DNA from: an uncultured Spirochaetaceae bacterium
GTDB taxonomy: Bacteria > Spirochaetota > Spirochaetia > Sphaerochaetales > Sphaerochaetaceae
Assembly (NCBI GenBank): GCA_944389275.1
Contig: CALXLT010000042.1
Span: forward strand, 1 to 64,000
Direction: 5' to 3'
DNA length: 64,000 nucleotides
Position numbers and translations under genes: made by a program
Notes under the pieces: generated by a model
The model's database searches: none
What the model was told of the DNA's origin: nothing
Seen by the model: only the letters and a program-made list of their open reading frames with translations
Shown here: piece after piece, positions 3 to 22,799 of the stretch
Layout of the letters: every line of letters begins with the position of its first letter
How positions within the stretch are numbered: position 1 is the stretch's first letter

Positions 3-3000
3 GATATCGAGGCGATCATAGGCTCCGGCGATATGCTTGCGTCGAATGGGGTCGTCGATGGCCGTGATACGGATATCACCTGGAAGGAGTTCGTGAAGCG
101 CAATAAGCCGGACATCGCCTTCGAGGGCAATGACGGGCAGAAGGATGACATCCTTGTCAGCGCGATACAGGATGACGCCATCCTCTCAAGGTATCTCGGG
201 ATAATCGGAGAGGCCCTTTACCTGAATACGAGGTATCTCAACAACCATGATCCATTCATCGACCAGGCGCAGCGCGAGAGGATCAAGGACAGGGTATACG
301 ATACCATCACTAGCCGCGTGGTCAGGAATGCCGCAGGGCAGCTTGCAAGAGGGGAAGGCCCGCTTCCGGCACAGAGGCTTGCATCCGCCAGGAAGGAGAT
401 ATCGGACAACGCGAGGCTCTACAGGAACGCTCTCTCCATCCTCCTCAATGATGACTCGATGAGGCCTGAGAGCCTTGTCAGCGAGACAAGGGGGCTTTCA
501 ATACCTTCACGCGAGACCCTTGATGCCATGCCGATATCCCAGCTGAGGGAGCTTGTGAAGACAGCGCAGGATGCCGAGATAGTCTCGAAGATAGAGCGCG
601 GCTCCCTGAAGGTGAGGGGCGACATCGATGAGGCGAGGGCTGATGAGATAAACTCCGCCCTCAAGAGCCTTGCAGAGAAGGTGAAGACGCAGCAGGCAGA
701 GATGCGGAGCCTTGAATCCGCGAATGCCTCACTGCAGACATCGCTTGACGCCCTCTCTTCCGATATCGATGCGAGGGACAAGGCCATAGATGATGCGATA
801 AGGCTCATGCGGAAGACCGAGGGGCTTCTCTCCAGCGATGCATCAAAGCTAAGCCTGGATGAGATGGAGGCCTACTCGTTCACGGATAGGATGAGGGAGA
901 TACGCATCCAGCTCCGCCTTCTCGGCTCCGGCTATTACGATGAGATCGAGAGAAGGCGAACGAAGGGCAAGCAGGGCATCACAAGGGACAATGCCATCAC
1001 CGCCGCCAGGAACGAGTATATATCCGAGGTTCTCATGACATTCCCTGACATCCTTGACAGCGAGTATGCCAGGAAGACCCTCACGGGAAGCATGGACCGC
1101 ACGAGCGATACAGGCTTCAGGGCTATCCGGAAGATCTTCGATGCCAGGATGGATGAGCTTAGATCTGAGTGGAAGGATGAGGCTGCAGCATATGCAAGGG
1201 GGCTCTCATCAAGCGTCCGCGCCAAGGCCGATGCCGTCTCGAAGGGGATAGATTCTGCCCTTGATAGGATGGCAAGGCTTGAGAAGGATATCGAGAGGCA
1301 GAAGGCCCTTAGGGAGACAATCAAGGAGAACCGCAAGCGGCAGATCAGGGATGCGCGCACCGAGGAGAGATGGAGGGCTGCGAAGAAGGCGCTTGAGCGT
1401 GAGAGGAAGTTCAATCAGGAGCTCAAGGCCGCCAAGAGCTATGCCGAATGGAAGAGCGATCAGCAGGAGGCCCGCTTCCAGGATGAGATACGTGATATCA
1501 AGGGCATGGCAAAGGAGAGGGAGGCTGAGATCCGCGAAAGCTACAGGGTCCGCATGGAGGAGATGAAGGCTGAGCAGAGAGCGAGAAGGAAGGAGCTTGC
1601 CCTTACCAAGGCAATTGACAGAGAGAAGGCGAAGCTTGCCCGCGCGATCATGCGCCCGGTGAATCTCAATACGACAGACTATTCCGTAGCTGAGCCCATC
1701 ATGGCCATACAGGCGATCGTTGACCCTCATTTCCGCCGTGACTGGGTGTATGACATACGCCCTGAAGGCGAAGGGACGATGACGATAGATGAGGCCAAGG
1801 ATTATCTCAGAACCCTTTCTGATGAGGGGAGATCCATAGCGCTGTCCACGCTGTCTCCTGACCTTGTCGCACGCCTCACCGAGCAGAAGAGGCCTCTCAA
1901 TGACTTCACCGTCTATGAGCTGAGGACGCTTGCCCAGCAGGTCAATCTCCTCCGGAAGCAGGGAAGGGAAGCCCTTGCCGCGAAGAAGGAGGCAACGAGG
2001 GCAATCAGCAATGAGGTCATACGCTCAGTCATTCTTGCTGTAAGGGATAGGGCCGACAGGCAGGGCGATGCGCTCCCAGGAAGCCTTGAGAGGCTATCCA
2101 AGGCAAGGAGCCTCAAGTCAACCGTCAACGAGGGGCTATATGCGACATGGCGCCCGGATGAGCTTTCGCAGCTCCTTGACGGCGGCTTCGGCATCCATGG
2201 TCCGGCGCGCCAGGTCCTCATCGATGAGAAGCGCTATCATCAGGACAGGGAGAACAGGGCCATCGACAGGAGGAAGGATCCCATCGATGCGATGCTTACG
2301 AAGGACATGGCCAGGAGGTTCTTCGATAAGCACACAGTCGATTTCGGTGATATCAAGATGACACTCACCAATGACCAGCTCGCATACATCTATCTCTCGC
2401 AGTTCAACGATGAGACAAGGGATGCGGTTGCGTATGGAAGCCTTCTCCTGGAAAGGGAGAAGGGGACCGTGACCAATAAGCTCGTGCTTGAGAACGGCGA
2501 GGAGACCATACAGTTCCTTGTAGCTGACAATGGGGCCATTGCGGATGATGCTGTTCTGAAGGAGACCGGAGACAGGCGCTATAGGATCGCTGTCGAGTAC
2601 GCGGAGAATGCCCTTGAGGAGTCAGGGCTCATGCCTGTGGTGAAGGCTATCGAGGCAGACTTCAATGACCCGCAGAACAGAGAAAGGCTCCAGCGCGCGT
2701 CCATCGACTACTTCAATAAGCCGATGGAGCTCGTGAAGTACTACCTTCCTATCTTCCGCACTGACGTGAAGGGCAATGACTTCGATAACGTTACGGCCGG
2801 AGCCCTGTTCAATCTCAATACAGGAGAGGTCCAGGGAAGCCCCGAGAAAGGGTTTACAATCCCACGTATCAAGAACATCGCGCCGCGCCATCAGCGGGGA
2901 GCCAATCTCTCCCTGCTGTCGGTATGGGATGAGAGCGTAAGGAACCAGGAGCACCTCATCGAGTTCTCCGGATACGTGAAGAAGCTCTACTCGATATTTA

Positions 3001-4145
3001 ACAACAGGGAGCTCAATGCGATGGTGAACCAGGCATATTCCCCAGGTCTCATGCACGAGATCCAAAGCTACATCAAGCTCATAGCGAATCCTCTTGCCCT
3101 GAAGGATACAGGAGACAAGGCGGTCAACAAGCTCCTTAGGACGGGAAGGGGCAGACTTACTACAGCATACCTTGCCTGGAAGCTCTCCGGCATCGTCATG
3201 CAGGCGGCCACATCCCCATGGCCCTTCCTCCGCGAGATCAACCCCGTCCGCCTGGCATCGGCATACATGCAGCTCGCCACCGGCAGGACGAAGGTCCTTG
3301 ATGACATATGGTCCAAGTCTTCCATGATGAAGCACCGCTCCATGGACATGATCCTGCAGGAAGCTATGGACAGGCAGAGGAACGTGACTGAGAGTGCTCA
3401 GATGTCAACGCTCCGTGAGTGGGAGCAGAAGGGCATGAATGGCCTTGAGTGGGTCGATAGGATAGCTGTTGCCGGAGGCTGGCTCGCGAAGTACCAGGAA
3501 CAGCTTGAGGCCGGGCAGAGAGCAGGCCTTGATACCGCGACAGCAGAAGCCGCTGCGATAAAGGCTGCGGATGATACCGTCCTGGCGGTGCAGCCATCAG
3601 GCGACCCGACAGAGCTGCCGTCCCTCTTCCGTACCCGGAATGAGGGCCTGAAGGCGCTCCTGCAGTTCCAGTCATCCCTCTCGGTCATATGGAACAACAT
3701 GACGGCCGACAATATCGGATACAAGAGGACAAGGCAATACGGGAAGATGCTGGCAGGCTCCATCGCATATGCCCTTGCCGGCATCACGCTCGGCCTTGCT
3801 GCAGAAGGCTTCGATGATGATGACGAAGGGAAGGACGTGGCAAGGAAGCTTGCATACTGGGCCCTCACGCAGCCGATTGAATCGGTCCCTATCGTAGGCT
3901 CGACGATATCCTCTGCGCTGCAGAAGGCCATCACGGGAAGCGCGGACTTCTATGGCTCGGGCTTCTCCCTGTGGCCTCCGGTGGAGAAGGTCTCAAGGGG
4001 ACTGCAGAAGATGCTGTCCAAGGATCCTGAAGGGCTGTACTCGGTCGCTGAAGGTGCTGCGCTCTTCACAGGCCTTCCCGTAAGCGGCTTCAAGCAGGCC
4101 ATGAAGGCCGTGACCGGAGAGCCGGAGGCGCTTCTTGGAAGATGA
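3..4145 (+). CDS. Large phage internal virion/ejection-type protein (5' end outside window)
   Basis: The frame is already open at base 3 and reads coherently into the first ATG at 33, so the gene begins before the window; about 1,380 codons are visible. Counting from that ATG, residues 200-560 are rich in Lys, Arg, Glu and Ala and look like long coiled coil. The C-terminal third is more globular, and residues 1242-1260 (GSIAYALAGITLGLAAEGF) form a hydrophobic segment. Very large proteins of this composition, encoded just before a T7-like tail fibre, are usually internal core or DNA-ejection proteins of podovirus-type phages. No catalytic motif was recognised. The role is inferred from size, composition and position; reading it as a phage structural gene is safer than the exact role. 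Confidence 0.6.
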   Translation, partial: DIEAIIGSGDMLASNGVVDGRDTDITWKEFVKRNKPDIAFEGNDGQKDDILVSAIQDDAILSRYLGIIGEALYLNTRYLNNHDPFIDQAQRERIKDRVYDTITSRVVRNAAGQLARGEGPLPAQRLASARKEISDNARLYRNALSILLNDDSMRPESLVSETRGLSIPSRETLDAMPISQLRELVKTAQDAEIVSKIERGSLKVRGDIDEARADEINSALKSLAEKVKTQQAEMRSLESANASLQTSLDALSSDIDARDKAIDDAIRLMRKTEGLLSSDASKLSLDEMEAYSFTDRMREIRIQLRLLGSGYYDEIERRRTKGKQGITRDNAITAARNEYISEVLMTFPDILDSEYARKTLTGSMDRTSDTGFRAIRKIFDARMDELRSEWKDEAAAYARGLSSSVRAKADAVSKGIDSALDRMARLEKDIERQKALRETIKENRKRQIRDARTEERWRAAKKALERERKFNQELKAAKSYAEWKSDQQEARFQDEIRDIKGMAKEREAEIRESYRVRMEEMKAEQRARRKELALTKAIDREKAKLARAIMRPVNLNTTDYSVAEPIMAIQAIVDPHFRRDWVYDIRPEGEGTMTIDEAKDYLRTLSDEGRSIALSTLSPDLVARLTEQKRPLNDFTVYELRTLAQQVNLLRKQGREALAAKKEATRAISNEVIRSVILAVRDRADRQGDALPGSLERLSKARSLKSTVNEGLYATWRPDELSQLLDGGFGIHGPARQVLIDEKRYHQDRENRAIDRRKDPIDAMLTKDMARRFFDKHTVDFGDIKMTLTNDQLAYIYLSQFNDETRDAVAYGSLLLEREKGTVTNKLVLENGEETIQFLVADNGAIADDAVLKETGDRRYRIAVEYAENALEESGLMPVVKAIEADFNDPQNRERLQRASIDYFNKPMELVKYYLPIFRTDVKGNDFDNVTAGALFNLNTGEVQGSPEKGFTIPRIKNIAPRHQRGANLSLLSVWDESVRNQEHLIEFSGYVKKLYSIFNNRELNAMVNQAYSPGLMHEIQSYIKLIANPLALKDTGDKAVNKLLRTGRGRLTTAYLAWKLSGIVMQAATSPWPFLREINPVRLASAYMQLATGRTKVLDDIWSKSSMMKHRSMDMILQEAMDRQRNVTESAQMSTLREWEQKGMNGLEWVDRIAVAGGWLAKYQEQLEAGQRAGLDTATAEAAAIKAADDTVLAVQPSGDPTELPSLFRTRNEGLKALLQFQSSLSVIWNNMTADNIGYKRTRQYGKMLAGSIAYALAGITLGLAAEGFDDDDEGKDVARKLAYWALTQPIESVPIVGSTISSALQKAITGSADFYGSGFSLWPPVEKVSRGLQKMLSKDPEGLYSVAEGAALFTGLPVSGFKQAMKAVTGEPEALLGR

Positions 4146-4579: not shown

Positions 4580-6892
4580 ATGCTGACAGATCAGGTAAGC
4601 AAGTATGTCTATGACATCACCGGGATCACGACACCGATCGCCACTGGATACGAGATACCCTTCACGATATTCCAGGCATCGGACGTGGTCGTATCGATCG
4701 GCAATGAGGACGGAAGCGTGACGGCCATCACGGAAGGCTGGAGCGTATCGATGGCCGAGACGGCCGCAGGAGTCAACAAGGTAGTCTTCAATGAGGGGTA
4801 CACCTTCCCTGAAGGGAGCACTACGCTGACCTTGTCGAGGGACGTGCCGGCAGAGCAGGACGTTGATCTACGCAACGGAGACAGGATGGATGCCGAGGTC
4901 ATCGAGAAGAGCCTGGACAAGATAACGGCCATGATCCAGCAGCTCAACGAGACTACGGGCCGATCATTCAAGCTCCCGATTTCAGAGGATCCTGATGACC
5001 TGACATTCCCCTCGGCCGATGCCAGGAAGAACATGATGATGGGTTTTGATGAAACAGGATACGGCATCAAGCTCGGTAACAACCCTGATGATGCAATCGC
5101 CCTGGCGAACGAAGCGCTCGAAAAGGCTGAGGAGGTTCAGACTGATGTCACTCAGAAGGCTGGCCAGGTAACGCTCGACAAGGAAGAGGTTGCGGAGAAT
5201 ACCGCGAAGGTCGAGCAGATTGCCGAGGATATAGACCTAGAGAACATCAATAACAAGTTTGAGGAGCTTGATCAGGATATAGAGAACGTTCAGAACAACA
5301 TCGTCCTTCCGGTCCCTGTGGTTGAGTTCGTCAAATACGCAGGAGGGGATGGAGGCCTTCTGACGCTCTCTCAGAACTGGGTAGGATATGCAGGCGTAAC
5401 CGTAAGGGCAAAGGTCGATGCCGACCCAACGGCAGAGGAGGCGGTGATAGATCCGACTGCAGGCCTTGCGATATCAGCGAACGGAACATGGCATATCAGG
5501 TCATTCTCGACTGACGGCACGAGCGGGAAGCCATCCCCGTCCGTATTCATGGAGATATCAGGGCTGAAGTGCCAGGCTCCGGCGATATTCTACAATGAGA
5601 CAAACCACCAGGTGACAATCACCGCTCAGACTTCCGGCTCGGTCATCCGCTATACAACCGATGGAACAGAGCCCACTGAAAGCAATGGCACTGTGTATTC
5701 CGCACCATTCGTCATTACAGCAAATTCGGTAATCAGCGCAAAGGCATTCAAGACAGGATTGATTGATTCGGACTGCGTGTCGAAAGAGTGCATTGTTGCA
5801 AGAGTCTATGGGGTAGTATGGAACAGGAACAGCAGCTCTACCAAGCTCACGAGACTCACTCCCGAGACGGACCCCTTCAACCTGGTCACGGAAACAATCA
5901 CGGAAGAGCCTGTCGCTGCGAAGAATGCCTCAGACCAGGGCTCATCCCCGATGGATGGCACAAAGCTTTGGGGACAGATGAAGATGAGGAATATCTCCGG
6001 CACGACTCTCGGCGCCTGGGAAGATGAGGAGGGGTTCTCCTTGTCTACAGCGGACGTTATGGTCAAGCTCCCTGACAATTGTTATTACACAATAAAGAAT
6101 GTAGAGAGTGATGGACAGAAGCTCCGGTATTACATAGTCGGGGACGGATACGCCCCAGGACTTACCAAGCATCAGGGGTCAGGCAAATATCTTGCTCGCT
6201 ACTTCACAAACTCCAGCTACAAGAGCGTTACCGGAGGAAGCGCGAGCACTAAAACCCTGAACGAGCATAGATCCGGTGCCGCTGCCAAGGGAACAGGATG
6301 GCATCAGCAGGGAATTGTTGAACGCTGCCTGGTAGACCTTCTCTATATAGTCGAGTATGCGGACTGGAATAGCCAGCAGGTTATTGGAAATGGCGATACT
6401 TCTTCTCAGAACAATAACGGAGGAACAGATGCAATGGTTTATCATACCGGCATCTCCGGCTCCACTTGCCAGTACAGGCACATAGAGAACCTATGGGGCT
6501 ATTACGAATGGGTTGACGGAATCCTCTTCCAAAACGGAAAGATATACATCTGCAAGGACTACGCTAAATTTTCCAATTCAATCACATCGGATTACACACA
6601 GTTCGGCTTTACTTATAGTTCGAGCATCGGAGATGGCTATATCAAGGACTTCGCGTATGACGAGGATGAGCCATGGCTCTTCATAGTGCCAAGTGCAGTC
6701 GGCGGTTCATCGACTACCTACGTTCCCGATTACGGCTATCTGTACTACAGCTCATCGGTCTTCGCGCTGTGGGTTGGCGGCAGCGGCGGCAGCGGCGACG
6801 CCGGCTACGGCTTGTTCCGCTTCTACGGCGGCAGCACGCCCGGCGGCAGCTACGCGTCTCGCCTCGTCTTCGAGGAGCCAAGCGCAGCGTAG
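4580..6892 (+). CDS. Phage tail fibre with T7-like N-terminus; target protein of the diversity-generating retroelement
   Basis: The 770-residue protein starts at the ATG preceded by AAGGAGG; the upstream open frame (from 4358) has atypical composition and was excluded. Residues 1-130 resemble the virion-attachment domain of T7-type tail fibres (RNGDRMDAEVIEKSLD region). A short coiled coil follows near 175-235. Residues about 330-402 resemble a chitobiase C-terminal-like beta domain (IRYTTDGTEPT). The C-terminal part is Gly/Tyr-rich and ends with the variable region at residues 726-762, only 8 residues before the stop. That layout is typical of retroelement targets, whose variable residues sit on a C-type-lectin-like surface. 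The inferred job is receptor binding with diversified specificity. Confidence 0.85.
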   Translation: MLTDQVSKYVYDITGITTPIATGYEIPFTIFQASDVVVSIGNEDGSVTAITEGWSVSMAETAAGVNKVVFNEGYTFPEGSTTLTLSRDVPAEQDVDLRNGDRMDAEVIEKSLDKITAMIQQLNETTGRSFKLPISEDPDDLTFPSADARKNMMMGFDETGYGIKLGNNPDDAIALANEALEKAEEVQTDVTQKAGQVTLDKEEVAENTAKVEQIAEDIDLENINNKFEELDQDIENVQNNIVLPVPVVEFVKYAGGDGGLLTLSQNWVGYAGVTVRAKVDADPTAEEAVIDPTAGLAISANGTWHIRSFSTDGTSGKPSPSVFMEISGLKCQAPAIFYNETNHQVTITAQTSGSVIRYTTDGTEPTESNGTVYSAPFVITANSVISAKAFKTGLIDSDCVSKECIVARVYGVVWNRNSSSTKLTRLTPETDPFNLVTETITEEPVAAKNASDQGSSPMDGTKLWGQMKMRNISGTTLGAWEDEEGFSLSTADVMVKLPDNCYYTIKNVESDGQKLRYYIVGDGYAPGLTKHQGSGKYLARYFTNSSYKSVTGGSASTKTLNEHRSGAAAKGTGWHQQGIVERCLVDLLYIVEYADWNSQQVIGNGDTSSQNNNGGTDAMVYHTGISGSTCQYRHIENLWGYYEWVDGILFQNGKIYICKDYAKFSNSITSDYTQFGFTYSSSIGDGYIKDFAYDEDEPWLFIVPSAVGGSSTTYVPDYGYLYYSSSVFALWVGGSGGSGDAGYGLFRFYGGSTPGGSYASRLVFEEPSAA
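6755..6865 (+). repeat. Variable repeat (VR) of the diversity-generating retroelement
   Basis: This 111-base segment aligns with the template at 7041-7154. Of 28 aligned template adenines, 19 differ here (15 A to G, 4 A to T). None of the roughly 83 aligned non-adenine positions differs. The VR is one codon shorter than the template within a run of AAC codons. The invariant ends, TCGGTCT on the left and GCGTCTCGCCTC on the right, bound the exchanged tract. The right end would act as the initiation-of-mutagenic-homing site. Confidence 0.95.
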
Positions 6893-6906
6893 GCGATCTT
6901 CGGGAG

Positions 6907-6932
6907 GGGTGCAGGGGAGGGCTCCCCTCACC
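6907..6932 (+). other. Hairpin downstream of VR, candidate retroelement target-recognition cruciform
   Basis: AGGGGA and TCCCCT pair around a GGGC tetraloop, and GGTG/CACC extends the stem after one unpaired C. It lies about 42 bases after the end of the VR and 15 bases after the fibre stop codon. No T-run follows, so it is a weak candidate for an intrinsic terminator. In the Bordetella phage BPP-1 system an inverted repeat just 3' of the VR is needed for efficient target recognition; this hairpin has the right kind of position. Confidence 0.5.
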
Positions 6933-7040
6933 GCATGAAACAAGGAGAAAGTGCAATGAATGATAGGATCAGATTCAAAGGAACATAGATATAGATCAGG
7001 GATGCCTTGTCTCCGCGTCCTCGTTGTAGGCTTCCTTTGT

Positions 7041-7154
7041 TCGGTCTACGCGCTGTGGGTTGGCAACAACGGCAGCAGCAGCAACACCAACAACGGCTTG
7101 TTCCGCTTCAACAGCAACAACACGCCCGGCAGCAACAACAACGCGTCTCGCCTC
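7041..7154 (+). ncRNA. Template repeat (TR) of the diversity-generating retroelement
   Basis: This 114-base tract is nearly identical to the VR except at adenines and is packed with AAC and AGC codons in register with the VR frame (30 adenines in all). AAC is the classic template codon because adenine mutagenesis of its first two positions reaches most amino-acid classes without stop codons. It lies between the fibre gene and the reverse transcriptase, as expected for the RNA copied by the enzyme. The flanks (about 6893-7040 and 7155-7382) contain no convincing gene and are probably part of the template RNA. Confidence 0.95.
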
Positions 7155-7382
7155 ATAGTCGGAGGGTGGTCCAAAGCCGTCCTTTGCCGAAAAACAAATC
7201 AAAGCAACTATATCCATACGATATATGCCCAGGCACTGCATTCCTCACACAGCGTGAAAATCTCGGCGATGAAGACAGGCGTTAGTAGGTCCACTCTCGA
7301 AAGCCCCTGCAAGACGAAAAGATGAAAGAAAGAGGCAAGACCCAAGGGACGGCACGACAGCGTATCTCGCAGCGCAGGAGTA

Positions 7383-8540
7383 TTGCGCCAGGATAGGAAA
7401 CGGCAAAGGAAAGCAGCAGTGCCCAAGAGAGTAGGGAATCTCTATCAGACGATCACGAAGGATTACATCCGGTCCATAATATTGAAGGCCGCATCCGGAA
7501 GGGAGAGCAGGCCCGATATAAAGAAGACCATCGAGAATCTCGATGCCTGCGTCAATCGAGTCTATTCGATGCTCATGGATGATTCATATGTCCCCCATAA
7601 GCCAAGGGTGGTGACCATATATGACGTGAGTTCGCAGAAGTTCCGGAAGATACAGATGCTCCCGTTCTTCCCGGACTGCATCATCCAATGGATAGTCGTG
7701 GATCTCCTTATGCCGGTGCTCATGAAGAGCATGGATGCGTACAGCTGCTCATCGATTCCCGGCCGCGGTGGCCATAAGCTGTATAGGCATTTCCGCAGAT
7801 TCATAAGGCGGAAGCACAGGCATGCCCGATGCGCCGTTCAGATGGATATCCATCACTATTACGAGAGCATCGATATCGGCATCCTCATGGCCATGCTGAG
7901 AAGGAAGTGCAAGGATGAGCGCCTGCTGCGCCTTGTGGAGGTCATCCTCCGCAGCACAAGCCAGGACGGCAAGAGCCTTGCCATAGGCTTCTATCTCAAT
8001 CAGTGGCTCGCCAATTTCTATCTCCAGTCAACCGACAGGCTCATCCACCAGGGAGGAGCCGTCAGATGCTATGGGCGGTATATGGACAACATCACTTTCA
8101 TAGGTAGCAACAAGAGGAGGCTGAGGGCGAAGATGCGGGAGATCTGCGAGAGCGTCAAACGGATAGGCCTCAGCATAAAAGGCGATTACCAGCTATTTCC
8201 CCTGCAGGAGACGAGGAAGGCAAGGATATCCAGGCTGCGCAGGCAGGCGATGCGGCCGTCTTCCAGGAAACCGCTACTGCCGTGCTGCAGGGATCTCAGG
8301 GCTGTCGGCTTCCGCTTCTTCGGGACGGGAAGGATCGCGCTGAGGCGGCGCAACTGGCTCCGCCTGAGGAGGCAGATGATCAGGATCATGGCAAGGCTGC
8401 CGGCAATAGGCAGGAAAACGGCGATGAGCTTCCTGTCGAGATACGGGAACATCAAGCATACATCGGCATTCCGCATCCGTGCGGGATATATCAAGGCGCC
8501 CGAGATCAGGGCTGTGAAGAGGAGTCTGAAGGCAGCATGA
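7383..8540 (+). CDS. Diversity-generating retroelement reverse transcriptase
   Basis: This 385-residue protein has the compact length of retroelement reverse transcriptases. Motif A is AVQMDIHHYYESID with Asp155. The motif-B region is IGFYLNQWLANFYL (201-214), matching the IGxxxxQ-type variant of these enzymes rather than the usual QGxxxSP. Motif C reads YMDN (233-236) instead of YxDD, so the second aspartate is Asn. The C-terminus is rich in Arg and Lys. The start is TTG at 7383 after AGGAG with tight spacing; GTG at 7419 after AAAGGA is an alternative. It reverse-transcribes the TR RNA with errors at adenines and feeds the cDNA into the VR. No separate avd-type accessory gene is visible. 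Confidence 0.93.
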   Translation: MRQDRKRQRKAAVPKRVGNLYQTITKDYIRSIILKAASGRESRPDIKKTIENLDACVNRVYSMLMDDSYVPHKPRVVTIYDVSSQKFRKIQMLPFFPDCIIQWIVVDLLMPVLMKSMDAYSCSSIPGRGGHKLYRHFRRFIRRKHRHARCAVQMDIHHYYESIDIGILMAMLRRKCKDERLLRLVEVILRSTSQDGKSLAIGFYLNQWLANFYLQSTDRLIHQGGAVRCYGRYMDNITFIGSNKRRLRAKMREICESVKRIGLSIKGDYQLFPLQETRKARISRLRRQAMRPSSRKPLLPCCRDLRAVGFRFFGTGRIALRRRNWLRLRRQMIRIMARLPAIGRKTAMSFLSRYGNIKHTSAFRIRAGYIKAPEIRAVKRSLKAA

Positions 8541-9010
8541 AGGCTACAGGGACAATGCCTACGACCGGGGCTTTTACGGTCATCGAGCGGGATGGCGTGG
8601 CCATCATCACTTTCTACGCGAACGCTTCCTTGGTCACGAAGGAAGACGGCGTGTCAACGGAATGGCAATGGGATGAATACACGATCAAGCGTGAATGGCG
8701 CGATGGCCTGTATTCCGATATCGAGGCGAACTACGATTCCTGGCTTGCCGTTGCGAAGGCAGAAGAGGAGGCCCGGACCCCGGTGGACGAGTGGCAGCTT
8801 AGGGCGGATGTCGACTTCCTGCAGATCATGCAGACGGCGGCCATGGGGATCGCCACGATGTCCCTTGGCTCAGATCCGGATGTCCTGGAGAAGGCGAGGC
8901 AGTACTATCCGAAGAGATGGTCCCAGGAGCAGCTTCAGATGCTGGTGAGCATGCAGAAGCTGTCCCAGGAGGATTATCAGGGGATAGCTGGAGAGGCTTT
9001 CTCAGCATAA
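8537..9010 (+). CDS. Hypothetical phage protein, 157 aa
   Basis: The gene begins with an ATGA overlap on the reverse transcriptase stop, so the two are translationally coupled. The product has a beta-rich N-terminus (TGAFTVIERDGVAIITFYA) and an acidic, helical C-terminal half. There is no signal peptide or membrane segment. It sits after the fibre-retroelement unit, where phages often encode a fibre chaperone or small tail protein; an accessory role in the retroelement cannot be excluded. The family is not recognised. Confidence 0.6.
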   Translation: MKATGTMPTTGAFTVIERDGVAIITFYANASLVTKEDGVSTEWQWDEYTIKREWRDGLYSDIEANYDSWLAVAKAEEEARTPVDEWQLRADVDFLQIMQTAAMGIATMSLGSDPDVLEKARQYYPKRWSQEQLQMLVSMQKLSQEDYQGIAGEAFSA

Positions 9011-9160: not shown

Positions 9161-9502
9161 ATGAACCGACCACTAGGAGATTTTATCCACAAGCTTCGGA
9201 AGGCTAAACGAGTCACCCTGAAGCAGGCAGGAGATGCCATAGGAATCTCATATGTGTATCTCTCGGAGATAGAATCAGGCAACAAGATCCCTTCAATTGA
9301 AGTCATCGAGTCTATCGCCGACTATTTCAATGTATCGGCCGAGGAACTCTTAGGCTATTTAAGGCAGCAGAAAGTACTTAACGAGACTACTGATTCCGAT
9401 GACCCGAGGGTTATTGCCGCAAGGAGGGTAATACTTATGTCCGAGAAGGACTTCTCGAAGATACAGCGCATGATAGCCAACATAGGAAAGGAGGATAATT
9501 GA
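9161..9502 (+). CDS. XRE-family HTH transcriptional repressor
   Basis: The 113-residue protein has an N-terminal lambda-repressor-type helix-turn-helix at about residues 8-62 (LKQAGDAIGISYVYLSEIESG). A polar tail without a peptidase domain follows. Start ATG is preceded by AAGGAGAAG. It lies one base from an ImmA-type peptidase gene, the arrangement of ImmR-ImmA regulatory pairs in mobile elements, where the HTH protein keeps the element quiet until the peptidase cleaves it. It probably binds the palindrome just upstream. Confidence 0.85.
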   Translation: MNRPLGDFIHKLRKAKRVTLKQAGDAIGISYVYLSEIESGNKIPSIEVIESIADYFNVSAEELLGYLRQQKVLNETTDSDDPRVIAARRVILMSEKDFSKIQRMIANIGKEDN

Positions 9503-10119
9503 TGGCAAGAATCGAGACGCCAGCAAACCACCAATCAGAGACAGTGATTCCAGGCTTCAGGGTGATGCCCCTGTCTTCTATTGCAATAGAGCGCAGGGCC
9601 AGTCTATTCCTGAAGCGGTACGGAAAAGAATTCGATATCGGTGATTTCATAGAGTACGATCTTGATGATATAGGATACGCGCTCAGGATATCCAATACAT
9701 TGAAGGAAGATGCTGTTACCAATTTCCATACAAGAGAGATCGTATTATCCAAGAGTGTTTACGAGAACATGGAATTGCCGCGCAATAGATTCACCATTGC
9801 CCATGAGCTTGGCCATGCCGTTCTCCATACGGACGAATTAAGCGATAGACAAGGAGCTGCAGCCAGGCATATAAACACATTGAAGCTAAAAGCATATGAA
9901 TCATCTGAGTGGCAGGCCAATCAATTTGCGGCTGCTGTATTGCTTCCATTTGAGGACGTTCTTGAATGTTTCTCTACAATCAGGTCTACAGCGTTTATGC
10001 GGTGGGATCTGATCTATAGACTGGCTGAGGGTTTTGAAGTGTCTGCAGAATGCGCAGAAAAGCGCATAAGGACATTAAAGCGCTTCTCACCACAAGAAAC
10101 AAGGAGCCTGATATGCTGA
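9502..10119 (+). CDS. ImmA/IrrE-type metallopeptidase
   Basis: The 205-residue protein contains the zinc motif HELGHAVLH (HExxH) near residue 100, preceded by RNRFTIAHE, the typical context of this family, and followed by EWQANQFAAAVLLP with the third-ligand glutamate. The ATG at 9502 overlaps the XRE stop (TGATG) and follows AAGGAGG, indicating coupled translation. It is expected to cleave the partner repressor on DNA damage or cell signals and so induce the prophage. Confidence 0.88.
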   Translation: MARIETPANHQSETVIPGFRVMPLSSIAIERRASLFLKRYGKEFDIGDFIEYDLDDIGYALRISNTLKEDAVTNFHTREIVLSKSVYENMELPRNRFTIAHELGHAVLHTDELSDRQGAAARHINTLKLKAYESSEWQANQFAAAVLLPFEDVLECFSTIRSTAFMRWDLIYRLAEGFEVSAECAEKRIRTLKRFSPQETRSLIC

Positions 10120-13022: not shown

Positions 13023-14156
13023 TCAGCGCCTTATCATGCCAGTAAGCTTGAGCTGGATATCCTTTACCGCCGCAAGGTCATCAGCATTCAGATGAAGATA
13101 GTGATCAGTCATCTCCTCTGACTCATGCCCGATGATATTCCTTACGATTTCCCCGGAAAGTCCTGATGCAACGACCTGTGTGTTGAAGAAATGCCGGAAG
13201 GAATGGAATGAAAGCTCCCTGGCTTCATAGTCGATTCCAGCCTTCACCATCGCCTCCTTCAATGGGTCCGTAAGGACTTTGTCATCGTATGGTATCAAGC
13301 CATCGGCGGAGAAGATTAGCTCATTCGCAGCTCGGCCTTCCGCAAGGGACGCCAGGATGGAATGCATCCTTTTCGTCAGAGGGATTATCCTATCCTTTCC
13401 GCTTTTGGTGCACTTCCTGCCTTCCTTGTCAGACCAGCCGCTGTCCACCAGGATGTATCCCTCGTGGACCTGCGAGACCCACAGCGCCCGGATCTCCCCA
13501 AGCCTCATCCCTGTGAATGCAGCTATGAATGCCGCTGCATATGCCGGCTCGAAATCCCATTTCCTGGAGAAGATCCTCACGACCTCATCCATTGTGAAGG
13601 CTCCTCTTCTCCTTGGCTTCTCAACCAAGGGCCTGATCGTCTCTGCAGGAGACTCGGGGATTATCCCATCAAAGACAGCTACGCGAAGCATCTGCTTCAG
13701 AAGCGAGAGCATCTTATTGGCCGTAGATGCCGCTATATGATGCTCTTCAGGCAAGCGGAGTATCCACCTGTCAACATCCCTCCTGGTTATAGATGGAAGG
13801 GGCTTCTCCCCGAAGTATGGGATGATATGCTTTTCCATCGATTGCCGATTGGAGATGCAGAGATCTAATGAGTAATGTCCGCCCCTCTTGAGCTTGTCCT
13901 GGATTATCGGACACGTCTCCCATACCCAAAAGGGCTCAGAGAACTCCCTGAAGGTGATCTTTGAGATTGATAGCGAATGCTGGCTTTCGTAGAGTACGCC
14001 CTCTGCTATGCGACGATTGATTTCCATCAAGGCCTTCTGTTTCGTCCTGCATCCGGTGGATCTCCTGATCCGGTTTCCATGCTGGTCATAGGCATAGTAG
14101 TAGATCATGCCATTCGCAGCCTTTGTCAGGGTGTAATACTCCGGGCTTTTGTACAT
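13023..14156 (-). CDS. int: Phage tyrosine integrase
   Basis: The 377-residue protein has an N-terminal arm-binding domain (YYYAYDQHGNRIRRSTG), a core-binding SAM-like domain at about 85-170, and a catalytic domain. Catalytic residues are visible: Arg in TGMRLGEIRAL, Lys in the beta-hairpin GKDRIIPL, HSFRHF, GHES and the nucleophile Tyr in DHYLHL. It reads toward the prophage interior and starts about 120 bases from the 3' end of tRNA-Leu, the classic place for an integrase that uses a tRNA attachment site. It catalyses prophage insertion and excision. Confidence 0.93.
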   Translation of the reverse strand: MYKSPEYYTLTKAANGMIYYYAYDQHGNRIRRSTGCRTKQKALMEINRRIAEGVLYESQHSLSISKITFREFSEPFWVWETCPIIQDKLKRGGHYSLDLCISNRQSMEKHIIPYFGEKPLPSITRRDVDRWILRLPEEHHIAASTANKMLSLLKQMLRVAVFDGIIPESPAETIRPLVEKPRRRGAFTMDEVVRIFSRKWDFEPAYAAAFIAAFTGMRLGEIRALWVSQVHEGYILVDSGWSDKEGRKCTKSGKDRIIPLTKRMHSILASLAEGRAANELIFSADGLIPYDDKVLTDPLKEAMVKAGIDYEARELSFHSFRHFFNTQVVASGLSGEIVRNIIGHESEEMTDHYLHLNADDLAAVKDIQLKLTGMIRR

Positions 14157-14268: not shown

Positions 14269-14276
14269 AACGAAAG

Positions 14277-14360
14277 TGCGGTCGACTGGACTTGAACCAG
14301 CATAGCCTTTCGACCACTAGCACCTCAAGCTAGCGTGTCTACCAATTCCACCACGACCGC
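14277..14360 (-). tRNA. tRNA-Leu (anticodon GAG); prophage attachment site
   Basis: Reading the minus strand, acceptor arms GCGGTCG and CGACCGC pair over 7 bp with discriminator A. The anticodon loop TTGAGGT sits in a CTAGC/GCTAG stem and gives GAG. A long variable arm and the GGTTCAAGTCC T-arm make it a class II leucine tRNA. CCA is not encoded. Its 3' end faces the integrase, so the 3' half of the gene is the probable attachment core; the other copy should lie left of the window. Confidence 0.93.
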
Positions 14361-18191: not shown

Positions 18192-18707
18192 GTTTTCTCC
18201 ACATATGTGGAGATGTTTCCATATGTATGCTTGGGAATTCCATTTGACCATCGTTTTCTCCACATATGTGGAGATGTTTCCTATACCCTTCCCGAGGCCA
18301 TGCTACCCGACACGTTTTCTCCACATATGTGGAGATGTTTCTGGCGGTTCACGAACAGGGCAAAGGTTGCTGTGGTTTTCTCCACATATGTGGAGATGTT
18401 TCTCTCACTCAGCTTCGTTACAGCATGTATACGGAGTTTTCTCCACATATGTGGAGATGTTTCTACGACGGGCCTCGGCATTAGCATCATTAAGAGGTTT
18501 TCTCCACATATGTGGAGATGTTTCTTGCCATCAAGCGTATAGAACTTTCCATCCTCAGTTTTCTCCACATATGTGGAGATGTTTCTCAATTCTGCGAGCC
18601 TGTCTATATCGGTGGAACGTTTTCTCCACATATGTGGAGATGTTTCCATGAAGAACTCCGACTATACGCTCAAGAACGAGTTTTCTCCACGTATGTGGAG
18701 ATGTTTC
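18192..18707 (+). CRISPR. CRISPR array 1, type I-E (9 repeats, 8 spacers)
   Basis: The 28-base repeat (GTTTTCTCC-ACATATGTGG-AGATGTTTC) recurs at an exact period of 61 from 18192 to 18680. Its centre CTCCACAT/ATGTGGAG is a perfect 8-bp palindrome, the crRNA hairpin recognised by Cas6e. The last repeat (18680-18707) has one change, CCACGT instead of CCACAT. Each spacer starts with T or C, so the functional unit may be a 29-base repeat ending in a pyrimidine plus a 32-base spacer. Confidence 0.98.
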
Positions 18708-18810
18708 AGTTATATACACTATGAATGAGTATTGAATTCCAAAGTTCACAATGCCTATAAGCTGTTTGATGAATATAATCAATGAACTATGGGTTATAAT
18801 CTATTCCATA

Positions 18811-21312
18811 ATGTTGCGGCCTAAGATTAAGCGGGTATGGAAGGATGAGATAAATCAGGATGCTTGCCTGGCGAAAACCGAAAGGATTGCCGGTATTGTG
18901 CAACCGGGAATGACTGTTGTCCAGCATTGTACTGCAACTGGAAGGATTTCTGAGGTCTTATCACAGCAATTCCCTTTTCTTGCAAGGCTCGGCTTATTTT
19001 TAGAGGGCTATCAACTGATCGCCTCATTGCATGATGTGGGAAAGATATCACCAACGTTCCAAACTAAGATAGCAAATGCATTACAACTTGAATCTGGAGA
19101 TTCCTTGCTGTCTTTGTTTGGGCTTAATGAATATAAGGAAAGCAAACCAAGTGATATACCGCATAGTGTCATAAGCTATTCAGCACTTAAGGATCTTCTG
19201 GGAAAGCAAGTTGCATATATTGAAGGTGCTCATCATGGATGGCTACAGGATGATAGATTTGCTGCGAATGCTGAAAGATTTGGCGGCGATGAATGGCAAA
19301 AGGCCAGGATTCGTTTTGTTGATGAAATGAAAAGCATATTTGGATGCGCCATACAGGATCTTTCGGGGTTTGATGCATCCATTATCCAATTTTTGCTGGG
19401 ACTGACTACAGTCTCCGATTGGATAAGCTCATCAATCGCTTTGAACGAGCTTGGTAGTAAAACAATATTCCTTGATTCTGTAGTTAAGTCTGGCTTTCAT
19501 GCTCATGAATATAAAGCAGGTCTTTCTTTTAAAGATATCTTTGGCTTTGATATGCGTCCTGAACAAGAGGCTTTTGTTGATAGTGTTAACGGTCCTGGGG
19601 TGTATATACTTGAAGCCGGAACAGGTTCCGGGAAGACCGAAGCCGCATTATATGCTGCATACAAGCTTTTATCAGCAGAAGAGGCCGAAGGAATCTATTT
19701 TGCATTGCCTACAACACTTACCTCACGTCATATCAAAAAGCGTGTTGATGCTTTTCTGAAAGCAATACTTGCAGAGGAATATATTCCTTCTAAACTTGTT
19801 TTCGGGAATTCCTTTCTGTACAACTGCGTGTTTGCTGATGGTTTTCCTGAATCTTCGTGGTTTGATTCTCGAAAACGTATGATATTGGCCCCATTCGGGG
19901 TAGGTACCATAGATCAGGCATTGATGAGCGTAATTTCCGTAAAGCATTCAGCTGTGCGTACATTCGGCTTGGCAGGAAAGGTTGTCATCCTTGATGAAGT
20001 ACATAGCTATGATAGCTATACAGGTTTGCTGATTGATGAGCTTATCAAGCAATTAAGGTCATTAGGCGCAACCGTGATCATATTGAGCGCAACATTGCAG
20101 AAATCAGTCAGGATGGAACTTATTGGAGCTCATGAAAGCGAAAATCTCTCCGATGCATATCCATCTGTCACGGTTAGCTCATGTGCGTCTATTAGAGAGA
20201 TAGCAGTAAAAGGAGATAAAAGAAAGACGATCTCACTTGTACATGAGAATGACAGGGAATCTGCAATTGATTCTGCGGTTGAGGATACCTTGGATGGACA
20301 ATATGTCCTTTGGATAGAAAATACAGTCGCAGATGCCCAGGATGCATATAGGAAGTTCTCCTCTAGGTGCTGGGGAGTTGCTGGAACAGGCCTTATCCAT
20401 TCCCGATTCCTAGGAAATGACAGAAGCCGGAAAGAGAATGAATACACAGCGATCTTCAGCAAGGAAAACTGGGATAAGCGAGGATTGGGAAAAGGCTTCA
20501 TACTTGTGGGAACACAGATTCTTGAGCAGTCTCTAGACATAGATGCTGACGTCCTGTATACGGCTATCGCGCCAATAGATATGGTTTTCCAGCGTATTGG
20601 CAGGTTATGGCGCCATGATCATCCCGGCAGAAGAGGGAAGCCTATCTGCCATTTGCTTCATCCTTCTGCTGAAGATGTACAGGATAACCCAGATGTACTT
20701 GGACCTAGTGCTGCAGTTTATTCAGGATACATATTATACCGGACAATTAAAGCATTGGAAAATACTGAAACGATTTCTGTGCCATATGAAATAAGATTGA
20801 AATTAGATGAAGTTTATAGTGATATAAATGAATATAATACTAAAATAATAAGTTTAAAAAATGAATTGATATCAAAAACATCAAAATTACGGAACCTTGC
20901 ATATAGATCAATTTCAAAGGTCGGTTCTGTTTTGTCTGACACTGCTTTGCCGAGATATTCGGAACTACGATATAAACGAGTTCTTCTTATCTCGAAAATC
21001 AAGCCAGAAGAAGGAAAGATATTGCTTATAGAGGGAGAGTGGATTGATCTTTTAAGGGCACAAGACCCACGAGAGAAGGCCATGATATCAATCCAGCTTG
21101 AGGAATCGATTATAAATGTTCCAGAAAGCAGCTGTCCTTCCCTTGTTAAATCCGAGAAAGCAGACGATATGCTATCTCGCTATATCTATGTTGATGATGA
21201 TTTCTACATAATGCTGAAGGGTGACGGACATCAGCTTTTCGATGTTTTCGGAAATTTGCTGGAAAAATGCCATTATGAGCCGAATCTAGGGTATTATCTT
21301 AGCAAGGAGTAA
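18811..21312 (+). CDS. cas3: CRISPR nuclease-helicase Cas3 (type I-E)
   Basis: The 833-residue protein has an N-terminal HD nuclease domain (SLHDVGKISPTFQ, His-Asp at 74-75; AHHGWL) and a superfamily 2 helicase domain: EAGTGSGKTEAALYAAY (motif I), VILDEVHSYD (II), LSATLQ (III), GTQILEQSLDID (V) and QRIGRLWRH (VI). It is recruited by Cascade to unwind and degrade target DNA. The ATG at 18811 was chosen because the family N-terminus begins near here; ATG at 18751 is possible. No good ribosome-binding site is visible for either. Confidence 0.96.
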   Translation: MLRPKIKRVWKDEINQDACLAKTERIAGIVQPGMTVVQHCTATGRISEVLSQQFPFLARLGLFLEGYQLIASLHDVGKISPTFQTKIANALQLESGDSLLSLFGLNEYKESKPSDIPHSVISYSALKDLLGKQVAYIEGAHHGWLQDDRFAANAERFGGDEWQKARIRFVDEMKSIFGCAIQDLSGFDASIIQFLLGLTTVSDWISSSIALNELGSKTIFLDSVVKSGFHAHEYKAGLSFKDIFGFDMRPEQEAFVDSVNGPGVYILEAGTGSGKTEAALYAAYKLLSAEEAEGIYFALPTTLTSRHIKKRVDAFLKAILAEEYIPSKLVFGNSFLYNCVFADGFPESSWFDSRKRMILAPFGVGTIDQALMSVISVKHSAVRTFGLAGKVVILDEVHSYDSYTGLLIDELIKQLRSLGATVIILSATLQKSVRMELIGAHESENLSDAYPSVTVSSCASIREIAVKGDKRKTISLVHENDRESAIDSAVEDTLDGQYVLWIENTVADAQDAYRKFSSRCWGVAGTGLIHSRFLGNDRSRKENEYTAIFSKENWDKRGLGKGFILVGTQILEQSLDIDADVLYTAIAPIDMVFQRIGRLWRHDHPGRRGKPICHLLHPSAEDVQDNPDVLGPSAAVYSGYILYRTIKALENTETISVPYEIRLKLDEVYSDINEYNTKIISLKNELISKTSKLRNLAYRSISKVGSVLSDTALPRYSELRYKRVLLISKIKPEEGKILLIEGEWIDLLRAQDPREKAMISIQLEESIINVPESSCPSLVKSEKADDMLSRYIYVDDDFYIMLKGDGHQLFDVFGNLLEKCHYEPNLGYYLSKE

Positions 21313-21317
21313 GCATC

Positions 21318-22799
21318 TTGGCTGATTCACGCTTCAATCTTGTCCATGAGAAGTGGATTCCTGCCGTAGGCAAGGGAAGGGTATCCTTATTGGATATCTT
21401 CTCAGATGATTCTATCCATGACCTTGCAGGAAATGCGATTCAGAAAATAGCGCTTATAAAGCTCTTTATAGCAATAGCCCAGGCTTCCTGTCGTCTTAAA
21501 GATGAAGAGGCCTGGAAAGAAACCGGGGTTAATGGCTTATCCGATAGGATAATCGATTATCTGCAAAGCCATGAGAGCTGTTTTTATCTTTATGGGGATA
21601 AGCCTTTCCTACAGATGCCCGTGCTTGCAGAAATCAAGGAGGCAAAGGTCCAGGAGATATATTTCGGATATCTTCCTGATCTAGCTTCAGAGAATGATTC
21701 ATTGCTTAGGCAGCTTCAGGATAAGTCTGAACTTGATGATGCGGATAAGGCTGTCTTCATTACCCAGCTGATGAACTATGCGCCAGGCGGGAAGCGTACA
21801 AGCTTCATCAAGCCGTTGTCACCTGGTTTCCAGACAAGAACCAAGAGCGCAAAGGCTGGTCCTAGCCTTGGAGGGACTAATGGATATCTCCAGACATGCT
21901 TGAAAGGCAATTCCATTAGAGAAACAGTATGGCTTAATTATTTTACTGATGATGATCTGATGGAGCTGCATGGAGGGCTCAGGCTTGATGTCAGACCTCC
22001 TTGGGAAAATATGCCAACCGGAGAAGCAGATAATAGGGCTAAGGAATTGCAATCTTCAGTGTACGCATGGCTTGTTTCCATCTCCCGCTTTGTGCTTCTT
22101 GATGATGGGGGAATAAGATATACGGAAGGTTTGCAGTATCCAAAGATCAAGGATGGTTATTATGAACCTTTTATAACAATCAGGAAGGAAGATAATGTGG
22201 CATTGTTTGCCGATCCTGCAAAGAAACCCTGGCGATCCTTTGTTGCTATGCTTCAGGCGGTATATGACGATTCATCGGAGTATTCATGCGATATCCTTCG
22301 CTTGTTCATGAGGCGTACCAAGGAGAATATGGATGTTTTCTCTGTGTGGTCAGGAGGTCTAAGGCTTAGGGCAAACAGCGGTGATCAAAGCGTTAAGCAA
22401 GACGATGATTACGTCGAATCGGAAGTGACTCTTGCAAGTGAGTTCATGGATTCCGACGGATATGGCCGCTTAGCTGAGGCTATGAAGAAGGTGGAAGGGT
22501 ATTCTGCTGGATTGCAGAAGGCAATCAAGGCATATTGCAGCCTGATTGATGATTCAACGGATATATCCGCAAAGGGCCGGAAGATGTATTGGCTTGCAGC
22601 TGAGCCATTGTCAAATGGACTCATCAACGCTTGCCTTTCTGATAACAACACAGAGATAGAGCTGATACTCAGTTCCATGAGGAAGATCGTAATTGATGTC
22701 TATGATTCTCTTTGTCCTCATGAAAGCGCAAGACAGATCCTGGTCTGGATGAAGAACAAGCCAATGAGAGGAGGTGTCGATCTTGGCAAGAAGCGATGA
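21318..22799 (+). CDS. cas8e: Cascade large subunit Cas8e (Cse1/CasA)
   Basis: The 493-residue protein has the family's typical opening FNLVHEKWIPA and mid-region MNYAPGGKRTSFIKPLSPG. It starts with TTG, supported by AAGGAG 8 bases upstream, 5 bases after the cas3 stop. Cas8e recognises the PAM and recruits Cas3. It forms Cascade with the four following gene products. Confidence 0.95.
   Translation: MADSRFNLVHEKWIPAVGKGRVSLLDIFSDDSIHDLAGNAIQKIALIKLFIAIAQASCRLKDEEAWKETGVNGLSDRIIDYLQSHESCFYLYGDKPFLQMPVLAEIKEAKVQEIYFGYLPDLASENDSLLRQLQDKSELDDADKAVFITQLMNYAPGGKRTSFIKPLSPGFQTRTKSAKAGPSLGGTNGYLQTCLKGNSIRETVWLNYFTDDDLMELHGGLRLDVRPPWENMPTGEADNRAKELQSSVYAWLVSISRFVLLDDGGIRYTEGLQYPKIKDGYYEPFITIRKEDNVALFADPAKKPWRSFVAMLQAVYDDSSEYSCDILRLFMRRTKENMDVFSVWSGGLRLRANSGDQSVKQDDDYVESEVTLASEFMDSDGYGRLAEAMKKVEGYSAGLQKAIKAYCSLIDDSTDISAKGRKMYWLAAEPLSNGLINACLSDNNTEIELILSSMRKIVIDVYDSLCPHESARQILVWMKNKPMRGGVDLGKKR

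Follow-up and report, generated by a model that had tools for sequence, protein, structure and literature searches.

The stretch of DNA analysed here (hereafter the window) comprises 64,000 nucleotides of contig CALXLT010000042.1 from an uncultured Spirochaetaceae bacterium, a gut-type spirochaete, and carries near its beginning a diversity-generating retroelement (DGR) composed of a phage tail fibre gene that ends in a variable repeat (VR), a template repeat (TR) and a reverse transcriptase (RT), in that order (Table 1). The main subject is this RT, whose motif C reads YMDN instead of YxDD, and the clade of YxDN enzymes to which it belongs. The locus forms the right-hand end of a prophage adjoining a tRNA-Leu gene; base 1 of the window is the start of the contig, where the left part of the prophage is cut off, and integrase, repressor, structural genes and tRNA are all present. 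Because the TR and VR differ at adenines only, the RT is closest to that of phage BPP-1, the order is VR-TR-RT, and integrase, repressor and tRNA accompany the cassette, the locus can be assigned to a DGR acting on a prophage tail fibre, as a preliminary description of the same DNA had proposed; what that description missed is the YMDN motif and the altered mutation spectrum of the clade.

The 97 nt of VR 6755-6851 align without a gap to TR 7041-7137 and show 19 mismatches, 19/19 at template adenines, of which this stretch of the TR holds 27; the probability of such a placement by chance is 3e-14. Extending the alignment to 6865 and 7154, beyond which the copies diverge, requires one 3-nt gap, the VR being one AAC codon shorter than the TR, and the 111 nt then compared contain 15 A to G (A>G) and 4 A>T changes and nothing else. 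The coordinates and counts reported previously are thus recovered exactly, provided that this missing codon, unmentioned at the time, is allowed for. The gap was dropped as a novelty, as slippage in the AAC repeats of DGRs has already been described (PMC12875486). The VR lies near the 3' end of its target, the position usual for DGRs, in which the variable part is typically C-type-lectin-like, and the earlier placement of its last residue 8 residues before the fibre C-terminus fits the 770-amino-acid (aa) frame. The fibre itself matches phage tail families (PHROG 5302, a tail protein, E 9e-39; PHROG 1640, E 2e-18), with CHB_HEX_C_1 and Fn3_assoc matches in its middle region. Searched against the whole genome, the TR matches a single VR; other states of this VR were found neither in IMG/VR, where no contig holds the TR core, nor within the genus, where the sole match covers 139 bp at 71%. 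By analogy with BPP-1, the 12-bp block in which VR and TR end identically is a candidate for the initiation of mutagenic homing (IMH) site, and the 6-bp inverted repeat downstream of the VR is a weak candidate for a homing hairpin.

The RT mentioned in the preliminary description has its open reading frame (ORF) at 7383-8540, and residues are numbered here from codon 7383; homology of VPKRVGNLY with the MPKR.GxLY of relatives makes GTG 7419 the likely start. The RT matches phrog_1423 (Table 1) and, at E 9e-16, the BPP-1 DGR RT (bRT; 8ub7). The latter is the best solved match by sequence and also by predicted fold (Z 27.3; model mean predicted local distance difference test score 81.5). The window RT groups with RTs having A-only TR/VR pairs and retains the aspartate of motif A. 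Its motif B, previously described as simply of the retroelement type, is the minority NQ form and not SQ: in a 2012 survey of 155 DGRs, (I/V/L)GxxxSQ occurs in RT domain 4 of 90%, and since NQ is among the rare forms listed there, IGFYLNQ still allows DGR membership (PMC3521204). In motif C, N236 (8088-8090) aligns with the catalytic D216 of bRT and T238 (8094-8096) with V218; both YxDD aspartates were 100% conserved in that survey (PMC3521204).

In comparison with the mtd / avd / brt system of the Bordetella phage BPP-1, the window shares a receptor-binding tail protein gene with the VR at its 3' end, a TR between target and RT, A-only mutagenesis, the RT fold and a motif B of the (I/V/L)Gxxx.Q type. 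It differs in the RT itself, where bRT has YMDD (D215, D216), V218 and F260 and the window has YMDN, T238 and A307, and in Avd, which BPP-1 possesses and which was not found here. There is no obvious Avd-like ORF between VR and RT, and neither the window's genome nor any of 14 whole YxDN phage records contains a match to bAvd (PF22296), in a search that recovers Avd in BPP-1 but that a diverged accessory protein could escape. That the locus is an ordinary BPP-1-type DGR and nothing more, as first described, is in keeping with its VR-TR-RT layout, its A-only changes and bRT as the closest solved structure, but is hardly tenable: motif C refutes it as a full description, and the NQ of motif B, the failure to detect Avd in or near the cassette and the shifted spectrum presented below all speak against it. 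The YxDD DGRs of gut phages on the same RT branch (Butyrivibrio phage Arawn, Lactobacillus phage LBR48 and crAss-like phages) have RTs that are 27-33% identical; Arawn resembles the window in its VR-TR-RT order and in the A-only TR/VR pair upstream of the RT, while Arawn and LBR48 differ from it in the DD of their motif C, and the YxDD RTs of their branch show about 22% A>C. A DGR in a spirochaete is also known from Treponema denticola (PMC4891356).

The YxDN clade of reverse transcriptases

The MDN-x-T signature recurs in the RTs of four other genomes of the genus, 35-47% identical to the window RT; A-only TR/VR stretches lie beside at least three of these four, the fourth RT being located at a contig end. 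A first protein-based scan of viral sequences for relatives of the window RT gave no matches, and viral relatives were recovered with an alignment query and DNA patterns, RYMDN.T patterns leading to about 70 IMG/VR contigs with homologous RTs. As the YMDN pattern searches imposed T at position +2, this association was checked again with a pattern on motif B that is blind to motif C; it yielded 28 YxDN enzymes among about 100 RTs, with T at +2 in 28/28 YxDN versus 2/70 YxDD. The YxDN RTs form 42 clusters at 75% identity, and three residues alone, N236, T238 and A307, separate all 42 from 66 sister YxDD clusters and from six interleaved YxDD RTs; D118 separates YxDN from YxDD RTs in 90%. The FLGY motif in which A307 aligns with F260 of bRT is presumably the primer grip. 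The RT tree places the YxDN sequences in two groups without other types, which a few YxDD sequences separate with weak support; two independent YxDN origins, suggested by FastTree and a quick IQ-TREE run, are not claimed, as the approximately unbiased (AU) test does not reject one clade (p 0.66).

Nearby A-only TR/VR pairs (at least 60 nt, at least 6 changes, TR at most 1 kb upstream of the RT or at most 300 nt inside its ORF) were found at 53 YxDN loci, nearly always in VR-TR-RT order. Judging from these sequence pairs, the clade appears to consist of active DGRs and not of dead RTs; the published YxDD rule is thus too strict, and the locus in the window remains a DGR. The opposite explanation, that the YMDN RT is dead and that the A-only VR is either a relic predating the loss of the aspartate or the product of another RT, can draw on mutants: HIV-1 RT with both YMDD aspartates replaced by Asn loses polymerase activity (PMC5498913), and YMDD to SMAA served as the active-site mutant control for bRT (PMC12875486). 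The genome of the window also holds two more RTs. This explanation is nevertheless very unlikely, as 42 diverse open-frame clusters show no variation at N236 and T238, which is not expected from decay, and TR/VR pairs accompany the enzyme at the 53 loci. Copying by another RT is further opposed by the YxDN RT being the sole RT found in 13 of the 14 whole phage records, and a relic VR by a spectrum unlike that of YxDD DGRs, which argues that the changes were made by the YxDN clade and not by YxDD ancestors.

Hairpin stems of at least 8 bp stand 3' of the VR at 27 of 56 YxDN loci, versus 0.4 expected from shuffles; the stem in the window has 6 bp. Those located 20-30 nt past the VR in L134, L159, L147, L168, L096, L448 and others have G+C-rich stems of 8-11 bp, often closed by a CGCA tetraloop, and G+C-rich hairpins just past the VR are a candidate homing signal of the clade. 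Motif B varies among YMDN RTs: it reads IGYYICQWLAN, with CQ for SQ, in L134, L159, L130, L129 and L127 (A-only TR/VR pairs in L134 and L159), and IGSPMGHDVGN, without SQ, in L037 (G024:C5; RT 7661-8740), where an A-only pair is present whose VR exceeds the TR by about 12 nt.

Mutation spectrum and a proposed remodelled active site

For the spectrum counts, 12 nt were trimmed from each segment end, since edge effects inflated A>C there. One phage contig, L132, carries two DGRs, one with a YMDN RT and the other with a different YMDD RT and its own TR/VR pair; the TR counted for L132 belonged to this second RT and was removed by requiring the TR to lie close to the RT start. The YxDN loci display 455 A>G, 191 A>T and 17 A>C changes, so that A>C represents 17/663 (2.6%), versus 146/653 (22.4%) at sister YxDD loci that share the motif B type and 244/1344 (18.2%) at other YxDD loci. 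The difference in A>C holds by locus (p = 1e-15) and after thinning to one per RT cluster (p = 1e-11). The fraction of A that is mutated in AAC contexts is equal in YxDN and YxDD (.56/.59 and.48/.48), and A>C is lowered in every context where YxDD has it (for instance, 3.2% versus 19.9% at the first A of AAC, 1.8% versus 19.2% in NAC). In the reference VR of BPP-1, there are 11 A>T, 4 A>G and 3 A>C.

Serine codons derived from AAY provide a synonymous comparison: AGY needs no A>C, TCY does. The AGY:TCY ratio is 105:0 in YxDN and 50:25 in sister YxDD (p = 2e-11; 82:0 versus 46:21 after thinning to one per RT cluster, p = 7e-9), and 176:25 in other YxDD (p = 3e-5). Outside the VR, TCY accounts for 41% (YxDN) and 42% (YxDD) of these serines in the same target genes, and comparing A>C within the nine metagenome samples that contain both YxDN and YxDD gives a Mantel-Haenszel odds ratio of 0.20. 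Amino-acid selection, codon use and sample environment thus do not explain the spectrum difference. The notion of a real difference that is produced not by the RT but by selection on amino acids, by codon bias or by the host cell can point to targets that differ somewhat (median 615 and 520 aa) and to phage contigs whose hosts may differ. It is improbable, however, in view of a synonymous serine difference that is just as strong, equal TCY use outside the VR, a contrast that persists within the same samples, and equal mutated fractions in AAC contexts. With high confidence, the locus can be regarded as a working tail-fibre DGR whose YxDN-x-T RT polymerises and mutates adenines, nearly without A>C.

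In mechanistic terms, the adjacent RT would copy the TR RNA, erring only at template adenines, and the cDNA so mutated would replace the VR within the last 45 codons of the fibre, both as in BPP-1. The YxDN enzyme would keep the usual adenine mutation rate with misincorporation of deoxyguanosine (dG) nearly lost, such that a template A would turn into G or T and seldom into C. From AAC, codons for Ser, Tyr, Gly, Asp, Val, Phe and Ile would be within reach, but hardly those for His, Thr, Ala or Pro or the TCY codons of Ser. The resulting variation of the fibre may change the host range.

As to the cause of the shift, dG insertion by bRT is context-dependent and has been ascribed to slippage (PMC12875486), but the loss of A>C across contexts (AAC and NAC among them) favours a changed base selection rather than only a loss of slippage. 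With moderate confidence, N236, together with T238 and A307, would shift the choice of base away from dG, making its insertion opposite a template A rare. The more specific proposal, that the Asn replacing one motif C carboxylate is compensated by T238 and A307 (perhaps also D118) and that the site so remodelled removes dG misincorporation opposite A, stands at about even chances. A possible, if somewhat doubtful, variant is that the RT sets the spectrum by way of different residues from N236, for example A307 of the presumed primer grip or T238. T at +2 alone is insufficient as the driver, two YxDD RTs with T at +2 showing ordinary A>C (5/22 changes), whereas A307 and N236 are inseparable in the present data. 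Against the overall explanation stand the following points: T238 and A307 are as diagnostic of the clade as N236, which equally favours the variant just mentioned; the AU test does not reject a single YxDN origin, so that a single evolutionary event may underlie the link between residues and spectrum; the clade to which the window itself belongs (clade 1) counts only 4 loci, with A>C at 3/48; and the window offers one VR state only.

Both aspartates of YxDD are regarded as indispensable to reverse transcriptases; a large active YxDN clade breaks this rule, and RT screens demanding YxDD would miss it. As adenine specificity and the mutation rate in AAC are kept while one of three error types is lost, the clade offers a natural handle on how DGR RTs choose the wrong base, and, from its spectrum, the receptor-binding site is expected to draw on fewer amino acids. 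If the remodelled active site does remove dG misincorporation, then the catalytic centre sets DGR error spectra and evolution can tune them. The YxDN RTs are apparently a widespread, undescribed branch. The terms 'YMDN' and 'YxDN' are applied to an RT in no paper of the open literature searched, subscription papers and supplements lying outside its scope, and the words 'motif' and 'catalytic' are absent from the main text of the 2021 global DGR survey (PMC8144416). Novelty of the clade is likely but not certain; existing DGR datasets may already contain YxDN RTs that went unnoticed.

Prophage setting and neighbouring features

The tail-module gene that follows the RT, whose start overlaps the RT stop, occupies the same position relative to the RT in relatives. 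Beyond it lie a lysogeny module and the integrase at the prophage edge (Table 1).

Table 1. Coordinates of the features of the DGR and its surroundings in the window
Feature	Position	Strand	Basis or remark
Target gene, prophage tail fibre, 770 aa, variable part C-terminal	4580..6892	+	ORF
VR, fibre residues 726-762	6755..6865	+	Differs from TR at 19 positions, each a template A
12-bp block GCGTCTCGCCTC, shared by the 3' ends of VR and TR	VR copy 6854..6865, TR copy 7143..7154	+	Sequence comparison
6-bp inverted repeat AGGGGA-GGGC-TCCCCT, 3' of VR	6913..6928	+	Sequence
TR, rich in AAC codons	7041..7154	+	Sequence comparison with VR
RT	7419..8540 (ORF from TTG 7383)	+	PF00078 (RVT_1) E 3e-8; phrog_1423 E 1.5e-67
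D118, fingers	7734..7736	+	90% of YxDN cluster representatives carry Asp here, most sister YxDD RTs Tyr
RT motif B IGFYLNQ	7983..8003	+	Alignment with relatives
RT motif C Y-M-D-N-I-T	8079..8096	+	Alignment with BPP-1 bRT
A307, aligned with bRT F260 in FLGY motif	8301..8303	+	Third residue fixed in YxDN clade
Next tail-module gene, XkdX-like C-terminus, start overlaps RT stop	8537..9010	+	PF09693 E 9e-6
Helix-turn-helix repressor and M78 peptidase, lysogeny module	9161..10119	+	Family matches
Tyrosine integrase, prophage edge	13023..14156	-	phrog_1 E 1.6e-50
tRNA-Leu(gag), beside integrase	14276-14360		ARAGORN

On the other side of the fibre, a prophage ORF at 33-4145 (1370 aa) has no Pfam or PHROG match. 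The two additional RTs of the genome are at G000:C37:194-760 (L002/L040) and G000:C52:984-1394 and are not close to the DGR RT. At 4 kb from the prophage edge, a clustered regularly interspaced short palindromic repeat (CRISPR) array spans 18192-18707, made up of nine 28-bp repeats, of which the last deviates by one base, and of 33-nt spacers that have no match in the window, prophage part included. The ORFs that follow the array read like Cas3 (18751-21312) and Cse1 (21318-22799), and the system is probably of type I-E.

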